NCBI RefSeq assembly: GCF_041435115.1
Contig: NZ_CP108046.1
Span: 7,192,001-7,256,000, forward strand
Origin: Streptomyces sp. NBC_00289
Lineage (GTDB): Bacteria; Actinomycetota; Actinomycetes; Streptomycetales; Streptomycetaceae
Length of the DNA: 64,000 nt
Reading direction: 5' to 3'
Made by a program: the position numbers and the translations under genes
Shown: positions 8,789 through 42,329 of the stretch, piece by piece
Layout of the letters: each line of letters opens with the position of its first letter
Position numbering within the stretch: position 1 is the first letter of the stretch
Notes under the pieces: model-generated
Told to the model about the DNA's origin: nothing
The model's input: the letters and a program-made list of their open reading frames with translations, nothing else
The model's database searches: none

Positions 8789-9925
8789 CTACTTCACGAC
8801 AGCCGCGGCGAGCTTGGACAGCGGCTCCGCGAGCGCGTTCACCGCGTCCGAGAGCTCCTTCTGCTGGTCCTTGCCGACCTTGTCGTAGGAGACGAAGTCG
8901 TACGACGTCTTGTCCGCGCGGTACTTGTCGAGCAGCGTGTTCAGCGCGGCGAACTGCTTGTCGAGCTCGGTGGTCAGCGCCGCGTCGTTCTCCTTGGCGA
9001 CCGGCTTGAGCAGCTCGTACGACTTCTGGGCGCCCTCCACGTTGGCCTTGAAGTCGACCAGGTCGGTGTGCGAGTAGCGCTCCTCCTCGCCGGTGACCTT
9101 GCCGGTGGCGACCTCGTCGAGGAGTTCCTTGGCGCCGTTGGCCATGGAGGTCGGGGTGATGTCGGCCTTGCCGACCCGCTTCTGCCAGTCCGTGAGGTCG
9201 GTGACCAGCTGGTCGGCGAGGGTCTTCTCCTCGGCGCCGATCTTCTTGTCCTGCCAGAGGGCCTTCTCCAGCCGGTGCCAGCCCGTCCACTTCTGGCCGT
9301 CCTCCAGGCCGTCCGCGCGGACGTCGACCTTCGGGTCGATGTCACCGAAGGACTCGGCGACCGGCTCGGTCCGCTCCCAGCCGATGCGGGAGGGCGCGTA
9401 GGCGGCCTTGGCGGCGGCCAGGTCGCCGGCCTTGACGGCCTTCACGAAGGTCGCGACCTCGGGCAGCGTCGCGTCGGCCTGCTCCTGCGCGTACTCGCGG
9501 TAGGCGGCGACCGCCGCGTCCAGGCGCGGGTCGCGCTTGGCGACCTTGCCGCCGGTGGCCTTGACCGCCTGGCGGATGCCCTTGCCCTTCATGCCCGGCT
9601 TGCAGGCGATCGTGTAGTCGCCCGACTTCACCTCGGCGGTGACCGTCTGCTTGGTGCCGGGGCCGATGTTCTCCCGCTCGCTGACGATGCGGTCGTCGGG
9701 GAAGAGGATGTAGACCTCGGTGACCTTGGAGCCCTTGTTCTGGATGTCGAGCTCGATGTGGCCGGCCGGGAACTCCTTCTTGGACACCTCGCACTTGGAG
9801 TCGGTGGCGGTCACCTTGATGGCGCCGGCACCTTTCCCGTCGCTCTTCTCGGCGCACCCCGTGACGGCGGTCAACGCCGCCGCGGTGGCGACGGCGGTGA
9901 CGACGGAGAGTCTGGCGGCTCGCAT
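8789..9925 (-). CDS. efeO: EfeO, iron-binding lipoprotein (cupredoxin + M75/imelysin)
   Basis: 378 aa from the ATG at 9923-9925, which has GGGAG upstream and places basic residues next to the signal helix; an in-frame ATG ten codons earlier is less likely. Lipobox VTGC puts Cys24 as the lipidated residue. Residues of about 35-125 form a cupredoxin-like domain (KVTATDSKCEVSKKEFPAG), and the rest is the imelysin-like M75 domain with the metal motif HRLE (HxxE) in GWHRLEKALW. It delivers iron to EfeU. First gene of the operon, behind an iron box. Confidence 0.93.
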   Translation of the reverse strand: MRAARLSVVTAVATAAALTAVTGCAEKSDGKGAGAIKVTATDSKCEVSKKEFPAGHIELDIQNKGSKVTEVYILFPDDRIVSERENIGPGTKQTVTAEVKSGDYTIACKPGMKGKGIRQAVKATGGKVAKRDPRLDAAVAAYREYAQEQADATLPEVATFVKAVKAGDLAAAKAAYAPSRIGWERTEPVAESFGDIDPKVDVRADGLEDGQKWTGWHRLEKALWQDKKIGAEEKTLADQLVTDLTDWQKRVGKADITPTSMANGAKELLDEVATGKVTGEEERYSHTDLVDFKANVEGAQKSYELLKPVAKENDAALTTELDKQFAALNTLLDKYRADKTSYDFVSYDKVGKDQQKELSDAVNALAEPLSKLAAAVVK

Positions 9926-35191: not shown

Positions 35192-35555
35192 GAGGTGTGT
35201 CCTTCTGGGGAAAGGGGGGCCGGTCGAGTCCGCTGATCGTAATGGGGAAGCGGCCGCCGCTCGTAGGGAGGGCACAGGAAAGGCCGGGTCGCTGCGACGG
35301 CCGCAAACTGAACGGGAGTGGCGTCGCTCACTGCGACAGGGGGTGGGCGGCCATGACGGATGTCGGTGCGAGCAGGCAAGATGGGCTGCGGAGCGGTACA
35401 CCCGCCGTACGTGAGGCGTTCACGCCGAGGTCAGCCGGACGATCAAGGTGCGCAACGCGCACGAAATGGTGTTGTGGTGGGATGCTCAGGTGCCCGACCG
35501 CCTCCCGTGGTACGGGAGACAGGCGGCCTGACCAGCAAGGATGGGGAAGCGGAAG
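35192..35555. promoter_or_regulatory. Divergent promoter region of DUF3105 operon and glnA2
   Basis: No gene. Contains GTGCGC-AAC-GCGCAC (35448-35462) and CTCCCGT-GGT-ACGGGAG (35502-35518), the second only 38 bp before the glnA2 start. Either could be an operator, or the second an RNA hairpin in the leader. No GlnR-type box was recognised. Confidence 0.4.
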
Positions 35556-36917
35556 ATGGACAAGCAGCAGGAGTTCGTGCTCCGGACATTGGAGGAGCGC
35601 GACATCCGTTTCGTACGGCTGTGGTTCACGGACGTGCTGGGCTTCCTCAAGTCCGTCGCCGTGGCCCCCGCCGAGCTGGAGCAGGCCTTCGACGAGGGCA
35701 TCGGCTTCGACGGCTCGGCGATCGAGGGCTTCGCCCGCGTATACGAGTCGGACATGATCGCCAAGCCCGACCCGTCGACCTTCCAGGTCCTGCCGTGGCG
35801 CGCGGAGGCTCCCGGCACCGCCCGCATGTTCTGCGACATCCTCATGCCGGACGGCTCCCCGTCCTTCGCGGACCCGCGCTACGTCCTCAAGCGCGCCCTG
35901 GCCCGTACCTCCGACCTCGGCTTCACCTTCTACACCCACCCCGAGATCGAGTTCTTCCTGCTGAAGGACCGCCCGCTCGACGGCTCACGCCCGACGCCCG
36001 CCGACAACTCCGGGTACTTCGACCACACCCCGCAGAACATCGGCATGGACTTCCGCCGCCAGGCGATCACCATGTTGGAGTCGATGGGCATCTCGGTCGA
36101 GTTCTCCCACCACGAGGGCGCCCCGGGCCAGCAGGAGATCGACCTCCGCTACGCCGACGCGCTCTCCACGGCGGACAACATCATGACGTTCCGCCTGGTC
36201 ATGAAGCAGGTGGCGCTCGAGCAGGGGGTCCAGGCGACCTTCATGCCGAAGCCCTTCAGCGAGCACCCCGGCTCCGGCATGCACACGCACCTCTCCCTCT
36301 TCGAGGGCGACCGGAACGCGTTCTACGAGTCCGGTTCGGAGTACCAGCTCTCCAAGGTCGGCCGCTCCTTCATCGCGGGCCTGCTGAAGCACGCGGCGGA
36401 GATCTCCGCCGTCACCAACCAGTGGGTGAACTCCTACAAGCGCATCTGGGGCGGCTCCGAGCGCACCGCCGGCGCCGGTGGCGAGGCCCCCTCGTACATC
36501 TGCTGGGGTCACAACAACCGCTCCGCCCTGGTCCGCGTCCCGATGTACAAGCCCGGCAAGACCGGCTCGGCCCGCATCGAGGTCCGCTCCATCGACTCCG
36601 GCGCCAACCCGTACCTCGCCTACGCGATGCTGCTCGCCGCCGGCCTCAAGGGCGTCGAGGAGGGCTACGAACTCCCGCCGGGCGCCGAGGACGACGTCTG
36701 GGCCCTCTCCGACGCGGAGCGCCGCGCGATGGGCATCGAGCCGCTCCCGCAGAACCTGGGCGAGGCCCTGACCCTGATGGAACGCAGCGACCTGGTCGCC
36801 GAAACCCTCGGCGAGCACGTCTTCGACTTCTTCCTGCGCAACAAGAGGTCGGAATGGGAGGAGTACCGCAGCGAGGTCACGGCCTTCGAGCTGCGGAAGA
36901 ACCTGCCGGTGCTGTAG
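35556..36917 (+). CDS. glnA2: GlnA2-type glutamine synthetase-like ligase
   Basis: 453 aa from ATG 35556 (MDKQQEFVLRTLEERDI), in line with S. coelicolor GlnA2 as I remember it. GS motifs: GFDGSAIEGFARVYESDM, THPEIEFFLL, NSYKRIWGG (ATP loop) and NNRSALVRVPMYKPG. GlnA2 of S. coelicolor is reported as a gamma-glutamylpolyamine synthetase rather than the main glutamine synthetase, so polyamine use is the likely role. The region matching the adenylylation loop reads EGYELPPGAEDD, unlike the normal PPEE motif. The last 97 bp are duplicated at 41586-41682 by an integrated island. Confidence 0.93.
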   Translation: MDKQQEFVLRTLEERDIRFVRLWFTDVLGFLKSVAVAPAELEQAFDEGIGFDGSAIEGFARVYESDMIAKPDPSTFQVLPWRAEAPGTARMFCDILMPDGSPSFADPRYVLKRALARTSDLGFTFYTHPEIEFFLLKDRPLDGSRPTPADNSGYFDHTPQNIGMDFRRQAITMLESMGISVEFSHHEGAPGQQEIDLRYADALSTADNIMTFRLVMKQVALEQGVQATFMPKPFSEHPGSGMHTHLSLFEGDRNAFYESGSEYQLSKVGRSFIAGLLKHAAEISAVTNQWVNSYKRIWGGSERTAGAGGEAPSYICWGHNNRSALVRVPMYKPGKTGSARIEVRSIDSGANPYLAYAMLLAAGLKGVEEGYELPPGAEDDVWALSDAERRAMGIEPLPQNLGEALTLMERSDLVAETLGEHVFDFFLRNKRSEWEEYRSEVTAFELRKNLPVL

Positions 36918-36926
36918 GGGCAGGTC
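36830..36926. repeat. attL-like copy: glnA2 3' end supplied by the island
   Basis: 94 of 97 bases match 41586-41682; the last 42 bp (36885-36926) are identical. This copy completes glnA2 and encodes NKRSEW where the distant copy has NKKSEW. A gene tail restored at the left and displaced at the right is the usual result of site-specific integration into a gene's 3' end. Confidence 0.85.
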
Positions 36927-36954
36927 AGAGCGCATGTCGCCGCTGCGGATCGCC

Positions 36955-36983
36955 GGGGCCGACAGTCTTGGACTGTCGGCCCC
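36955..36983 (+). terminator. Strong stem-loop terminator after glnA2
   Basis: GGGGCCGACAGTC and GACTGTCGGCCCC form a perfect 13-bp stem around TTG, 38 nt past the glnA2 stop. A diverged counterpart lies at 41712-41740, after the displaced glnA2 tail. Confidence 0.85.
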
Positions 36984-37097
36984 GTGGCGTCTCACCCGAT
37001 CCTGGGCCGCCCGTGGGCCGTCAGACGTGGGAGCCCCTATCGCCGTAGCCGCGAAGCGCGCGGGGCGGCGCACTCGCGTGCACGAACTGCTGCGGCG

Positions 37098-37166
37098 CTG
37101 GCTGAGGGCCAGTCCCATGGCAATCCTGCGGGACCAGGAGCCGGTCATAGCTGGTCCAACGGCCCT
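37098..37166 (+). ncRNA. Possible structured RNA or leader before the reverse transcriptase
   Basis: Nested complementary segments: AGGGCC (37105) with GGCCCT (37161), GTCCC (37112) with GGGAC (37130), GGACCA (37131) with TGGTCC (37152), and CTGGC with GCCAG (37098-37112). Some are mutually exclusive. Many defence-associated and retron RTs have a structured RNA next to the gene; this is only a candidate. Confidence 0.25.
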
Positions 37167-37237
37167 GGAGCGGGGGCCCATCATGCCGGTAACCTACGTC
37201 TGACTAACAGCACTTGACGGGGCGGCAGGGAACACGC

Positions 37238-38710
37238 GTGGCCAAAGCGGAGTACTTGGATGCGGTGGCCAGCCGCTTGTTCAACGTTGAGAGCCGCCAA
37301 GAACTCCCTGACATCATCAATTTTCGCGACGTCAGTTCCAATTGGGACGAGGGCTACCGTGACGAGATGTTGGGACATATATCCAACGCTCACTGTGGGC
37401 CTAATAGGGTCGAAATTATCGAGCACCCCAAGGACCCAATCTCGGTGCGGCCGCTCGCACGCTTCGATATCAAGGATCGCTTGACCTATGAGGCTATAGT
37501 CGCGGAGATAGTAGAGACGGTCGATAGTCTCGTACCAGAGAACGTCTACAGCTACAGGGCTAATCGAAGCCAGATTCACTCCGTAGATGACTGGTTGGAA
37601 TGGCGAAATCAAGCGCGCAAGATCCTAGACGCTAACCCTCGGCTCGCAATGGCAAAGACAGATGTTGCCAATTTCTATGAAAACATAGATATCGACATCC
37701 TCAAGCTAGACCTCGCGCAGGCCGGAATCCGCGAACCGCTCTTGAGTCAAATTCATTACTTCCTGCAACGATTCGAGCAGCAATCAGGCGCCTGGGGACT
37801 CCCTCAAGGATCGAGCGCGTCAGGCGCGCTGTCCAATGTCTACTTGCTTCCTTACGATGAGCACATTAGACAATTCGGTGCGCAGCATGTTCGTTATTCA
37901 GATGACACATATATATTCGGCTATAGCTGGGAACAGCTACGTTCTGTGTTGGCTGGAGCGAATCAGGCCCTTCGTGCGAGGCGTCTGACAATAGCCGCAA
38001 GGAAGACTGAGATATTCGATCGGCCTGGAAGCCTGGGCCACCTAGATGACTCGTCTCGCGACCGTATTTCCTACCTCTACTATCGGGGTGTGCCGCAGGC
38101 CAAGAAGCTCCTCACTGAGCTTTTCACTGAGGCGACAGCTCTAGGGCCGGTAGGGGAGCGTGATGTCAGGTTCTCCCTGACGCGCTTCAAGTGGAGGAGA
38201 GACGCCACCGCGGTTGACTGGGCCCTCGGCAATCTCAAGGATTTGCATCACCTCTCGGATCAGATCCTCCGCTACGCCGAGGCCTTGCCTAGGCGCCGAT
38301 GTGAGTTGATCAACACCCTTGAGGCGACGGTCCTTGACTTCGACCTGGTTGACTACGCCTACCTTGAAAGAAATATATTTCACTCGGCACTGCGCCGGAA
38401 AATCAGATCCAAAGTACTCAAAGATAATGCATGGGCTATTCTGCGTGACAGGAACCGCTCCAATTACCCACGCGAATTTGCGGCCCGATATATCGGGCGT
38501 TTCTCGGAAATTGCGGACGGCCCCCTTCTGCGCATGCAGTATGAGGCCGAGGGGAGCGAACCGGTCCAGCGAGCGTTACTTGTCGCTCTCTATGAATGTC
38601 AGTACCTCCCGCCGAAGCTTCTCCCCTCTCTGTCGCAATCCCTCTCTGACTTGAAATGGACCGCTCGGTACCTGCTCAGGAATCCCCCCATTGTGCCGCT
38701 CCCGAAGTGA
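37238..38710 (+). CDS. Reverse transcriptase of the Abi/UG (defence-associated) type
   Basis: 490 aa from a GTG with AGGG upstream. The palm motifs are clear: KTDVANFYENI (first catalytic Asp about 142), WGLPQGSSASGALSNVYL (LPQG at 188-191), RYSDDTYIFGYS (catalytic YSDD at 220-223) and AARKTEIFD. No maturase X/thumb or HNH domain of group II introns follows; instead there are about 230 helical residues, as in abortive-infection and unknown-group RTs. It forms a two-gene unit with the Nudix gene 10 nt downstream. GC is low (33 of 60 at 37681-37740) and codon 447 is the rare TTA. Confidence 0.85.
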   Translation: MAKAEYLDAVASRLFNVESRQELPDIINFRDVSSNWDEGYRDEMLGHISNAHCGPNRVEIIEHPKDPISVRPLARFDIKDRLTYEAIVAEIVETVDSLVPENVYSYRANRSQIHSVDDWLEWRNQARKILDANPRLAMAKTDVANFYENIDIDILKLDLAQAGIREPLLSQIHYFLQRFEQQSGAWGLPQGSSASGALSNVYLLPYDEHIRQFGAQHVRYSDDTYIFGYSWEQLRSVLAGANQALRARRLTIAARKTEIFDRPGSLGHLDDSSRDRISYLYYRGVPQAKKLLTELFTEATALGPVGERDVRFSLTRFKWRRDATAVDWALGNLKDLHHLSDQILRYAEALPRRRCELINTLEATVLDFDLVDYAYLERNIFHSALRRKIRSKVLKDNAWAILRDRNRSNYPREFAARYIGRFSEIADGPLLRMQYEAEGSEPVQRALLVALYECQYLPPKLLPSLSQSLSDLKWTARYLLRNPPIVPLPK

Positions 38711-38720
38711 AAGGTGAGAT

Positions 38721-39509
38721 GTGTCGAGAGTCGTTGCGTATTTCGTCGCTTCGATAGCGCTTTTGGCGCTGGGTTTTTCTTTCCAGAACACTACTATCGG
38801 TGATATTACAACTGGTGGATTCTTGGCCCTCGTCACCCCCGCAATACTTGCTGTTAGCGATGAAAAAGTAGCGATACGCATGCGGTGGTACTCGATGCGC
38901 TACAGGAGTGAGATGGTGCGCATATCTGCGGCCTACTTGTTCCGCATTAAGATCGACGGAAAGTACCTTTTGGTCAAGGGGGTTCGATTTCCTCACTATC
39001 AGCCTGTCGGTGGGGTGTTCAAGGTGTCATCCAAAGGCCGAAGTTTCTTGGTTGGTGTCGGCGCCCAGGACGATGATTTGATCCCTATCGATCAAGCAAG
39101 TGAAGCGGACCTGAGAATTCGAATAAGGGGAGCGCACCTTTCTAGATTTTATAAGTGGTTCGATGGGCGGACGGGGCGTGAAGACGCTCCTTGGCGTGAG
39201 TTCCAGGAAGAGTTGATAGCCACGTCCATCCTCCCGGAGGGAGTCTTTCCGTACATTCTGCATGAGTATCATGGGCGGGTAGTAGACAGGATTCGTTTCA
39301 GTCCCTACGCGGACTCTCGCGAAGTTATTATGGCTGACGTTTACGAGTTGCTTCCAACTCGCGAACAGGAAGAAGCATTGAGGTTGACGCTCTCTGCTCA
39401 GCGCAATGAATTCGGCTGGTTCACCAGTGAAGAGATTCGGCGGCGTGGCGTGCTCCCTGGTATGCCAAATGTTGTGCCTATTGCGGAGCATGCGCAAAAA
39501 ATCGTATAA
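38721..39509 (+). CDS. Membrane-anchored Nudix-domain protein (RT partner)
   Basis: 262 aa from a GTG with AAGGTGAG upstream. Two hydrophobic helices (VVAYFVASIALLALGFSF and TGGFLALVTPAILAVS) are followed by a Nudix-like domain: FPHYQPVGGVFK, then GREDAPWREFQEELIATSIL with REFQEE at 159-164. The Nudix helix normally binds metal and cleaves a nucleoside diphosphate-X bond. A long insert (about residues 105-150) separates the GG strand from the box. The layout resembles two-helix effectors of nucleotide-signalling conflict systems. Function with the RT is unknown. Confidence 0.75.
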   Translation: MSRVVAYFVASIALLALGFSFQNTTIGDITTGGFLALVTPAILAVSDEKVAIRMRWYSMRYRSEMVRISAAYLFRIKIDGKYLLVKGVRFPHYQPVGGVFKVSSKGRSFLVGVGAQDDDLIPIDQASEADLRIRIRGAHLSRFYKWFDGRTGREDAPWREFQEELIATSILPEGVFPYILHEYHGRVVDRIRFSPYADSREVIMADVYELLPTREQEEALRLTLSAQRNEFGWFTSEEIRRRGVLPGMPNVVPIAEHAQKIV

Positions 39510-39515
39510 GCAGTC

Positions 39516-39722
39516 GAGCGGGTCGTCAGACTCGTCTGCGGCCCGCGTCGCGCGCTCGGCAGCGAGCCATGAGATGTCCGATTCACCGATCTCCGCGAGC
39601 GTCGTCGCGGCGAGGTGGTGGGTGCGGGCCGACACTGCCCGGCAGTCGCTACGGTCCTCCCCGCGCCGTGCGGCGCGCTCCTCCAGCTCTTGCTCAGTCT
39701 GGAGGAGCGCGGGAAGTGCGGA
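39516..39722 (-). pseudogene. Fragment of an XRE-type regulator with helical sensor domain
   Basis: The reverse strand reads ALPALLQTEQELEERAARRG, then SARTHHLAATTLAEIGESDI and SWLAAERATRAADESDDP without a stop. This is the middle of the TPR-like half of Streptomyces XRE regulators (the SWLAAERA-RAAD pattern is typical). Both ends are missing: it runs out before the terminator on one side and into the Nudix gene's 3' end on the other. A remnant from island assembly. Confidence 0.55.
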
Positions 39723-39735
39723 GCGTCATCCCCTT

Positions 39736-39778
39736 ATGGCGAAGGGACCCGGACACAGCGTCCGGGTCCCTTCGCCAT
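39736..39778. terminator. Perfect 19-bp stem-loop terminator
   Basis: The 19-nt arm ATGGCGAAGGGACCCGGAC (39736-39754) is complementary to 39760-39778, with ACAGC as the loop. It lies between the convergent RT-Nudix unit and the HEPN-like gene and can stop transcription from either side. Confidence 0.8.
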
Positions 39779-39841
39779 GAGCCACGGCAAGTCACAGTGC
39801 GAGACGTGTGAGGACGCAGCGACGTGGGAGACCGACGCCAG

Positions 39842-41311
39842 TTACATCCTTTTGGCGATCAACATCCCCAGAACATGCCGCACTGCCTCATCCAAACCGT
39901 GCAGGTAGGAATCTTTGGGCTGCCTGGCGAAGGCGGCGTTAACTCGCTGATTCCTGGTGGTCAAATTCTGGACGCTGTCGTTTTCTCTGTAACCGCCCTC
40001 ATGTGCCACGGCGTTTCTGACATCCGTCCAAATCCTTGCCACATCCCAAAGGGATTCGCCGGTGTTAGCGCAGAAGCTTGACTCTGCGACCGAAGCGAGC
40101 ACGGACGCATCCCGGACGGTTTGATAGACCTTTCCGCGAGCTTCCTTGGTTTTAACGTTTCTGAGGATGTTCCTGTTATCTGGTTTTTGGATTACCGCGC
40201 CCGAGAAATCTTTAACCAGGGAGGTGTCGCCGTATCTCTCCAACCCGATTGACTCCAGGAGGTTGAAAAGTCGAAACCACTTAAAGTCCCACCTCTGCTC
40301 GCGAAGGGAGTCGCTGTAGAGGGAAATCCAGAGTTGGATTTTCTCATCGGCTTCAATGGCGTCCCATGATGCCAAAATGGAGTGTTGGTCTTCTCCGGAA
40401 ATGAATCCGCCGATTAGATTTCCGCCATACGGTGCGCCATCGATCCATGCGAGTTCTGGTTTCCATTCCCCGAGCGGGTCGCGAATCTCGGCTACGGCCG
40501 AGATCAATTGAGGTTCTGCCCCGCGAAGCAGCGACATCAGATGCAGAAACGATTGCACTCTATCCCGCACGTACTGAATTGCTGATCCGCCGCTTCCTGC
40601 CTTTACGGATGCCGCGACTGCCACTACCACTGGTCGTCGTCGGGAGTACTCCGCGATCCATTTGGTTGGGTCCATCCTGGAGGGCCAACCAGACTGTGCG
40701 AGCAGCGAATTGAACATCTCAGGAATATCGGAGCCCCGAGTGGAGGCGTTAACCGGGAATAGTACGACACCGGGAATGTAAAGAGAGCGTGTATTGAGAA
40801 CACCGTCGGCGAGGAAAGCAACGCGGTATTCTTTGCTCCCTCCATCGCCTGTGCGCAAGGTGCGATTGACTCGTTCATTCCGAATATCGGCTAGACGCTG
40901 CAATTCGAGGTCCGGCGTGGCCGCGCAATCAGATCCACGGAATTCGTTGTCGCCGATTAGGTGAAGTGACCGCTTGTAGTCGACTCCAGCCTTGAGTGCC
41001 TTTTGCTGCAACGCCTCCCCGGAATTGGCGTCGACCGGAGTCAGAGCAGCCACTTCGACAAGGTGGGGCCACCCCTCATGGACAACATCTGCGGCTCTCC
41101 CTACCCATACATTTCCCTCAGTGAGGGTTAGGTTGACACCTGCGTACCAATCACTAGAAACGTCATCGTGGCCGTAGATGCTCGCAGTGACGTGATGGTC
41201 AGGTGGTGGAAAGGCCCCATCGATTGTTACTTGGATTTCCAAATCTGAATTAACCGAAGCGACTTTGATGGAGAAATTCGAAAGCTCTTCTGCTTCGGTC
41301 ACGTGACTCAC
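39842..41311 (-). CDS. Unknown island protein with C-terminal HEPN-like RNase motif
   Basis: 489 aa from a GTG at 41309-41311. The N-terminal 400 residues match no family I know; residues of about 1-115 look beta-rich. Near the C-terminus ESLWDVARIWTDVRNAVAHE contains R432-N-A-V-A-H437, the Rx4H signature of HEPN RNases, in a helical context (ApeA-like). HEPN proteins are common toxins and RNA-cutting effectors in phage defence. Encoded opposite to the RT unit inside the same island, with the same low GC. Confidence 0.6.
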   Translation of the reverse strand: MSHVTEAEELSNFSIKVASVNSDLEIQVTIDGAFPPPDHHVTASIYGHDDVSSDWYAGVNLTLTEGNVWVGRAADVVHEGWPHLVEVAALTPVDANSGEALQQKALKAGVDYKRSLHLIGDNEFRGSDCAATPDLELQRLADIRNERVNRTLRTGDGGSKEYRVAFLADGVLNTRSLYIPGVVLFPVNASTRGSDIPEMFNSLLAQSGWPSRMDPTKWIAEYSRRRPVVVAVAASVKAGSGGSAIQYVRDRVQSFLHLMSLLRGAEPQLISAVAEIRDPLGEWKPELAWIDGAPYGGNLIGGFISGEDQHSILASWDAIEADEKIQLWISLYSDSLREQRWDFKWFRLFNLLESIGLERYGDTSLVKDFSGAVIQKPDNRNILRNVKTKEARGKVYQTVRDASVLASVAESSFCANTGESLWDVARIWTDVRNAVAHEGGYRENDSVQNLTTRNQRVNAAFARQPKDSYLHGLDEAVRHVLGMLIAKRM

Positions 41312-41585
41312 TTTTCTTCCCTATTCAACCGCTCTGTTGCATTTCGCCTGATCTTATTCATTCGGTGCTCGTCGCGCAGCCGTTTTCGAAGGGAGAGGCC
41401 ATGCAGGTCAGAGCGCATGGATTTTCAGGGCCCGGAGTGCAGGATGAATGGGCCGTCGTGCGGGGCCGTCCGTGGGCCGTCGAAGGGTGGCCCACAGCGA
41501 CCAACAACGACCAATGACCACCGCTCGACCGCAGGTCAGCGCTGCGCCGACGACGATCGCCTGAGGTCGCTCCGGGCCGACGTCA
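41312..41585. other. Right end of the island, no gene
   Basis: Holds the promoter of the HEPN-like gene and a 17-bp sequence (GCAGGTCAGAGCGCATG, 41403-41419) identical to 36920-36936 just after glnA2. Further right, GGGGCCGTCCGTGGGCCGTC resembles GGGCCGCCCGTGGGCCGTC near 37004-37022. These look like arms of a recombination site; no integrase frame is present. Confidence 0.55.
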
Positions 41586-41682
41586 CTTCCTGCGCAACAA
41601 GAAGTCGGAGTGGGAGGAGTACCGCAGCGAGGTCACGGCGTTCGAGCTGCGGAAGAACCTGCCGGTGCTGTAGGGGCAGGTC
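41586..41682. repeat. attR-like copy: displaced original glnA2 3' end
   Basis: Partner of 36830-36926 (94 of 97 identical), including the last 28 codons and stop of glnA2 without a start. It encodes NKKSEW, as I recall for S. coelicolor GlnA2, so this is probably the original chromosomal tail pushed 4,756 bp away by the insertion. Confidence 0.85.
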
Positions 41683-41711
41683 GGGAGACCTTTCCTGCTG
41701 GTTCGGCGTGT

Positions 41712-41740
41712 GGGGCCGACGGCCCTGGACCGTCGGCCCC
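41712..41740 (+). terminator. Original glnA2 terminator
   Basis: GGGGCCGACGG pairs with CCGTCGGCCCC (11 bp, 7-nt loop), 39 nt after the displaced glnA2 stop; homologous in position to 36955-36983. Confidence 0.7.
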
Positions 41741-41774
41741 GTGGTGTCTCACGGTCCCTGGGGGACTTCCGGCG

Positions 41775-42329
41775 CTATGCCGGGTCGCACGTTCTCGACG
41801 CCGAGAAGGAGATGCCCCCTGTGTAAGGGGCCGCCTGCGCTTTGACCTTTTCCGGCAGGGGCCCGACACCCATGAAGCCGCGCCAGCCGCCGGACGTGAG
41901 GTCGGTCGTCACTTCTTTTCCCGCCGTCTTCACGCCCTCCGGGCCCGGAAACTTCCACCCACGCTTCTGCAGACGGCTCACGACAAGGCGGAAGTCCGCC
42001 TTGTCCGGGACCGCGCGGGAGAAAACAGTGGCATCGATCTGGCAGGCGTTGAGGCGCTCTCCCCGGTCGAGGAGGCTCGGGCGTCCCCCGAAGCTCGCGG
42101 TGGCGGAAGTGAAGTCGTTCAATGCCTGGGTCCGGCTCTTCTCCGCTGACGCTGACGACGGCCGGCGCGTTCCGGACGTGGCCGGTGCCTCCTCGGCGCC
42201 TCCACAGCCCGCGAGCAGCAGCATGGCAACGACGCCGACTGCCGTCGTCTGTCTGAGTCCTCCCAATTCCCACCCCTGGTGTGCGGACCTGGCGTCTAAC
42301 ACCAGGTCAGAGGTGGGCAGTCCTGTCAT
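41775..42329 (-). CDS. Small lipoprotein, unknown function
   Basis: 184 aa if the ATG at 42327-42329 is used. Hydrophobic run TTAVGVVAMLLLAGC ends in a lipobox, so it should be lipid-anchored outside the cell. The remainder (QALNDFTSATASFGGRP, GWRGFMGVGPLP) has no family I recognise. The start is uncertain because GGGAGGA lies close to the signal helix; with this ATG, codon 11 is TTA, which would make translation depend on the bldA tRNA. Confidence 0.6.
   Translation of the reverse strand: MTGLPTSDLVLDARSAHQGWELGGLRQTTAVGVVAMLLLAGCGGAEEAPATSGTRRPSSASAEKSRTQALNDFTSATASFGGRPSLLDRGERLNACQIDATVFSRAVPDKADFRLVVSRLQKRGWKFPGPEGVKTAGKEVTTDLTSGGWRGFMGVGPLPEKVKAQAAPYTGGISFSASRTCDPA

Follow-up and report, generated by a model that had tools for sequence, protein, structure and literature searches.

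Among reverse transcriptases (RTs) of the unknown-group (UG)/Abi type, the enzymes of class 1, to which AbiK, Abi-P2 and AbiA are assigned, synthesize DNA without a template and from a protein primer, according to the available part of the report on the defence-associated reverse transcriptase (DRT) system DRT10 (PMC12632851). DRT10 itself is described there as a UG17 RT with a SLATT protein and a noncoding RNA (ncRNA); defence is lost without SLATT, for which its authors propose control by cDNA. Transmembrane (TM) helices combined with a NUDIX domain are known from the CBASS protein Cap16 (available part of PMC10419184). Herein, we describe two adjacent genes of Streptomyces sp. NBC_00289, found in a window of 64,000 nucleotides (positions 7,192,001 to 7,256,000 of contig NZ_CP108046.1, to which all window coordinates below refer), that encode an RT of group UG23 and a Nudix protein with two predicted membrane helices (2-TM). 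The pair is real and intact, its two genes are tightly coupled, and as a defence candidate it is of a kind already catalogued. As in DRT10, the RT adjoins a 2-TM protein of effector type, and SLATT is also the partner in a sister clade of UG23; the window pair differs from what the available part of PMC12632851 describes in its Nudix partner, its class 1-like layout and the fact that no upstream ncRNA was found. The layout of TM helices and NUDIX is that of Cap16 (available part of PMC10419184), but, in contrast to CBASS, an RT takes the place of the cyclase, and a Pfam scan of the three proteins of the island in which the pair lies found no CD-NTase.

The pairing is already catalogued, since the RT is PADLOC UG23 and its partner PADLOC RTasNUDIX. 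The RT matched the model RT_UG23 over positions 3-489 of 489 (E 2.9e-185, 614.5 bits), the second-best model being UG32 (206.1 bits), and the partner matched RTasNUDIX over positions 1-234 of 234 (E 3.8e-97) and Pfam Sa_NUDIX (E 4.8e-64). No difference was seen between the window pair and the UG23 systems with RTasNUDIX or RTasSLATT in PADLOC-DB 2.0.0 (2023), whose models carry no function. A preliminary description of this DNA had not known the partner as part of a characterized system. No functional study of UG23 was found in the literature searched, and PMC8934634, on RTs, gives no functional test in its available part; the pairing itself was in PADLOC by 2023.

According to the same description, 10 nt separate the two genes, which lie in an island of low GC, and the open reading frames (ORFs), the gap and the GC profile agree. 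The Pfam E-values of both products (RVT_1, 1.3e-20; Sa_NUDIX, 4.8e-64) argue against a chance finding. Both ORFs are on the + strand, and GC content in 1-kb windows is 0.547-0.616 across 37001 to 42000 vs 0.655-0.788 in the remaining window. The start codon of the RT is GTG at 37238, and an alternative in-frame TTG upstream at 37214 is possible. The 11.0-Mb source genome holds a single full-length copy of the RT, its three other matches being weak (E 3e-4). Searches for plasmid carriage in PLSDB (E <= 1e-20) and for phage carriage in INPHARED (E <= 1e-10) gave no match.

UG23 was found in 15 of the 392 genomes of the genus (E <= 1e-80), with up to three first-look candidates per genome scored among the matches listed. 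In all 15 loci, and also in S. speibonae (L005), the product of the gene after the RT shows two hydrophobic peaks. The preliminary description had proposed to count how often a membrane-bound Nudix gene follows homologous RTs, its absence there speaking against a joint system; the partner is RTasNUDIX in 9/15 loci, plus L005, and RTasSLATT, another 2-TM protein, in 6/15 (five scanned directly, 6/6 by reverse search). Among the candidates scored, linkage was also seen from the side of the partner. A reverse search with RTasNUDIX gave nine hits in the 392 genomes (E <= 1e-25), all beside the nine Nudix-linked RTs, and one with RTasSLATT gave six (E <= 1e-15; up to nine candidates per genome scored among the matches listed), all beside the six SLATT-linked RTs. 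Across the loci, RT and partner are separated by -32 to +24 nt when the furthest start is used. In locus L033 (genome G224), a TAG stands in the RT frame at 9495-9497, near the 3' end, and the downstream SLATT gene is open; counted from this TAG the gap is +46, and this UG23 RT is either truncated or naturally shorter.

In a midpoint-rooted tree of the RTs (16 rows, 15 of them different), the 10 Nudix-linked and the six SLATT-linked enzymes lie on opposite sides of one branch (support 99/99), and partner type thus tracks RT clade. What the two partners have in common is two hydrophobic helices, and not a Nudix domain.

We propose that the pair is an abortive-infection-type, two-gene anti-phage candidate in which DNA made by a class 1 RT controls a membrane-damaging 2-TM Nudix effector, a reading that we hold at even balance. 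The UG23 RT would need no nucleic-acid template for its DNA synthesis, with protein serving as the primer. This DNA, an RT-DNA complex or the RT itself would control the co-encoded two-helix protein, whose Nudix domain would act as sensor or regulator by means of a metal and a ligand, either nucleotide or phosphate, and the two helices would damage the membrane, by which the infected cell would be killed or stalled. The sign of this control might be activation, or restraint until a phage interferes. We infer the DNA product, the control of the effector and its sign, and the phage trigger. In the available part of PMC13275509, an effector in DRT1 is activated, and also restrained, by DNA synthesis, and Hailong is mentioned as having a channel blocked by DNA adducts. 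The candidate defence role and the membrane effector put forward in the preliminary description gain support from the PADLOC matches, the two-way linkage and the swap of one 2-TM protein for another in the sister clade. With the HalB system the pair may share a logic of enzyme-made DNA controlling a membrane protein, although HalB is, to our knowledge, not an RT and the logic is here a proposal.

The RT carries a Pfam RVT_1 domain at residues 64-261 (E 1.3e-20), and its AlphaFold2 model (mean pLDDT 92.2) has a polymerase domain to about residue 260, followed by a helical C-terminus at about 262-480. An alignment of 46 RTs (the window sequence and 45 of the 89 homologues found) has no variation at D142, P189, Q190, Y220, S221, D222 and D223, and hardly any at G191. 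The long helical C-terminus and the intact motifs D142, LPQG and YSDD of the preliminary description were recovered. Two affiliations that would have spoken against that description were rejected, with the UG23 model far ahead of both: group II intron RT (group_II_RT_mat, 88.4 bits, curated cut-off 300) and retron RT (retron_St85_RT, 35.1 bits, curated cut-off 235).

By structure, the RT model matches AbiK, Abi-P2, AbiA, DRT6 and DRT4/UG15 over 377-456 residues at 10-15% identity; DRT6 and DRT4/UG15 are presumably also members of class 1. The domain layout points to class 1, and with it to template-free synthesis, because the predicted model aligns almost end to end with DRT6, DRT4 and AbiK (Foldseek TMq 0.60-0.64 with DRT6 and with the better of the AbiK chains), and with DRT2/DRT9 in the polymerase part only. 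The AbiK-like order of an RT domain and then a helical domain is likewise present in the predicted UG23 model. UG23 differs from the class 1 UG/Abi RTs by this low identity and by a 2-TM partner at every sampled locus. The matches to AbiK, Abi-P2 and AbiA would also suit an RT that is itself toxic, as thought for Abi-type polymerases, whose DNA synthesis would deplete dNTPs or titrate proteins; an antitoxin, anchor or regulator would then be the role of the 2-TM protein. We regard this as quite unlikely, as two distinct 2-TM families, both matching '2TM Effector' models, suit an effector better than an antitoxin.

The AlphaFold2 model of the Nudix protein (pLDDT 92.1) and hydropathy (Kyte-Doolittle peaks at residues 4-22 and 34-52) both give the two helices of the preliminary description, and its REFQEE lies at 159-164. 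Besides RTasNUDIX, the protein matches four PADLOC '2TM Effector' models, which we take to represent CBASS effectors, and all 48 aligned Nudix sequences (the window sequence and 47 of 120 listed homologues, of 153 found) match both types of model. In all 48, R159, E160, F161, E163 and E164, plus Q94, P95, G97 and G98, are invariant. The canonical contiguous Nudix box is GX5EX7REUXEEXGU. It is absent here, because the GG at 97-98 and the REFQEE lie about 60 residues apart. No solved protein chain was found to be related in sequence to this Nudix family, and the model may therefore serve as a starting point for Cap16-type proteins. In fold, it resembles ADP-ribose pyrophosphatases, MutT-type enzymes and other Nudix proteins.

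These fold matches and invariant residues are also what would be expected if the Nudix protein were catalytically active at the membrane and hydrolysed either a restraining signal or a nucleotide or dNTP that the phage requires; the RT would then act as its sensor, triggering or feeding it. Hydrolysis stays a live rival because the Nudix residues are fully conserved, but we consider it unlikely: the Nudix box is non-contiguous, and SLATT, without a Nudix domain, takes the same gene position in the six-locus sister clade. In addition, mutation of the NUDIX domain leaves Cap16 of CBASS toxic (available part of PMC10419184). For the last two reasons, the destruction of a nucleotide signal by the Nudix protein, as suggested in the preliminary description, has become less likely. 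Since the Cap16 mutant remains toxic, the helices are the candidate toxic part, and by analogy the case points to toxicity in the helices and regulation in the Nudix domain.

More tentatively, and as a rather doubtful possibility, the pair might belong to a modular immune circuit in which DNA that a template-free RT has attached to itself acts as a second-messenger-like ligand that gates either the 2TM-Nudix or the SLATT protein, the Nudix domain reading a DNA end or nucleotide and opening a pore. A Nudix-bearing channel tied to ADP-ribose is known in TRPM2. If the circuit were true, the RT would occupy the slot held by the cyclic-nucleotide synthase in CBASS.

Several observations weigh against the proposal of class 1 DNA acting on a membrane effector. 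The fully conserved metal-binding residues of the Nudix domain would fit an enzyme no less than a sensor. The sample is of one genus, with UG23 found phylum-wide in only 1/396 genomes, the window's own (E <= 1e-60), and co-transfer alone can link neighbouring genes. As for the RT, no priming residue was found, and its best Foldseek E-value is with a DRT9 chain (2.2e-11), yet at a TMq of 0.42. Compared with solved chains, the polymerase part finds group II RTs first (5.6e-18), then DRT9 (2.4e-12), Drt3a (1.4e-11), DRT2 (2.8e-10), UG15 (1.3e-9) and AbiK (5e-8), and the NCBIfam scores of the RT are 61.9 bits for Drt3a and 49.9 for Drt2 vs 28.5 for Drt4 and 20.5 for AbiA. Around the genes, loci L028/L029 share 102-104 nt upstream of the RT, and similarity extends some 320-340 nt beyond the partner gene in L022/L025, which have additional flanking blocks in common, and in L028/L029. 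An RNA template may also lie inside the genes, downstream or unlinked.

By its sequence scores, the RT domain is less close to UG15 and AbiK than to DRT9, Drt3a and DRT2, which would suit a class 2-like enzyme that copies an unrecognized ncRNA into repeat cDNA binding the membrane partner, as proposed for DRT10 and its SLATT, and the SLATT partner type is common to the UG23 sister clade and DRT10 (available part of PMC12632851). We nevertheless find an RNA template improbable at this locus, given that the RT model matches class 2 enzymes in the polymerase part only and that no upstream template RNA was found by comparison of locus pairs or by Rfam, which had no match in 36700-41900. In five of the eight pairs, upstream similarity ends 4-41 nt from the RT: it begins 25 nt before the RT start in window/L005, 31-36 nt in L022/L025, 19 nt in L023/L028, 35-41 nt in L024/L027 and 4 nt in L021/L030, where it is patchy. 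L025/L026 are near-identical throughout and L031/L032 align inside the genes only, and neither pair is informative on a template RNA. Multiple alignments upstream of the RT had no clear conserved block, the row of L005 containing a run of N there. On the 3' side, window/L005, L023/L028 and L024/L027 lose their similarity near the end of the partner gene.

Table 1. Features of the UG23 locus and its island (coordinates in the 64,000-nt window)
Feature	Coordinates	Strand	Evidence
UG23 RT, 490 aa	37238..38710	+	PADLOC RT_UG23, Pfam RVT_1, AlphaFold2 model
2-TM Nudix effector candidate, 262 aa	38721..39509	+	Pfam Sa_NUDIX, PADLOC RTasNUDIX, AlphaFold2 model
Two predicted membrane helices, Nudix codons 2-47	38724..38861	+	AlphaFold2 helices 2-20, 25-47
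REFQEE, putative metal-binding helix, Nudix codons 159-164	39195..39212	+	invariant residues in alignment
Possible transcription terminator, 22-bp inverted repeat (95%), 5-nt spacer	39733..39781	.	3' of Nudix gene
Orphan-family protein, 489 aa, third island gene, convergent to the pair	39842..41311	-	no Pfam match
Glutamine synthetase, 458 aa, host gene with the island at its 3' end	35541..36917	+	Gln-synt_C E 6.7e-124
Left repeat, glutamine synthetase 3' end and palindrome behind it	36830..36995	+	repeat comparison
Right repeat, duplicate of the glutamine synthetase 3' end	41586..41752	+	repeat comparison, alignment

The island is flanked on both sides by the 3' end of a glutamine synthetase gene (Table 1). 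The two copies share 97 nt at 97% identity (right copy 41586-41682) and then 41 nt at 88%, with a start-to-start spacing of 4756-4757 bp. For five relatives (L054-L058), the match reaches the glutamine synthetase 3' end or slightly beyond and goes no further, and the right flank of the window is unmatched beyond the repeat. The 97-mer was matched in 387 of the 392 genomes of the genus (E <= 1e-8; up to two candidates per genome scored, only the best matches being listed). Among the matches listed, a contig with two copies, at a distance of 1.5-26 kb, occurs in eight genomes (the window's, G061, G141, G189, G250, G323, G346 and G059). An additional 2.6-kb case in G231 holds another UG23 pair, RT-SLATT, between the copies, and two different UG23 pairs therefore use the glutamine synthetase site. 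Genus-wide, this 3' end is a recurrent insertion site, with integrase-bearing elements of 16-26 kb and small islands of 1.5-4.8 kb. Among the small islands, those of the window and L034 carry UG23 pairs, that of L037 an AAA ATPase and an integrase remnant, and that of L038 a PIN protein.

The large elements (G059, G250, G323 and G346) have a gene of the phage integrase family at the repeat end, directly adjoining the repeat in three of them and about 1.8 kb away in G059. We take such integrase-bearing elements to be actinomycete integrative elements (AICEs), which are recognized by their own tyrosine integrase beside an att repeat; the window island has none there. A tblastn search with four integrases from this site (E <= 1e-2) found no tyrosine integrase in the window locus (L035) and nothing in L034, L036 and L038, and gave a C-terminal fragment in L037 (G189). 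Elsewhere in the source genome, at C1:5902982-5904238, is a tyrosine-integrase relative that is 61% identical to the L040 integrase, and one may speculate that it acts in trans on the island.

The third island gene encodes a member of a family with 12 members found, its own included. In 11 aligned sequences (10 of the 11 other listed members and its own), R432, N433 and H437 of an R-N-x3-H motif, which we take to be HEPN-like, are invariant. It was rejected as a part of the system, being on the opposite strand and having gone unmatched by tblastn in the 15 other UG23 loci; it is probably outside the RT-Nudix system and possibly a separate defence gene or RNase. The start of an ORF at 39515-39635 (- strand) reads ARTHHLAATTLAEIGESDIS..., and its first stretch recurs before the integrase remnant in L037; it looks like a broken gene left behind in the island.

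What is new here is the two-way linkage of RT and partner, the replacement of one partner by another, the class 1-like layout, with the caveat of the sequence scores, and an integrase-less cassette between gene-end repeats. Several DRT systems make unusual DNA, and the route from this DNA to immunity is often open; the authors of DRT10 call the step from DNA to immunity a key unanswered question (available part of PMC12632851). UG23 offers a natural experiment, with one RT family and one gene position, and two putative membrane effectors that sort by RT clade.
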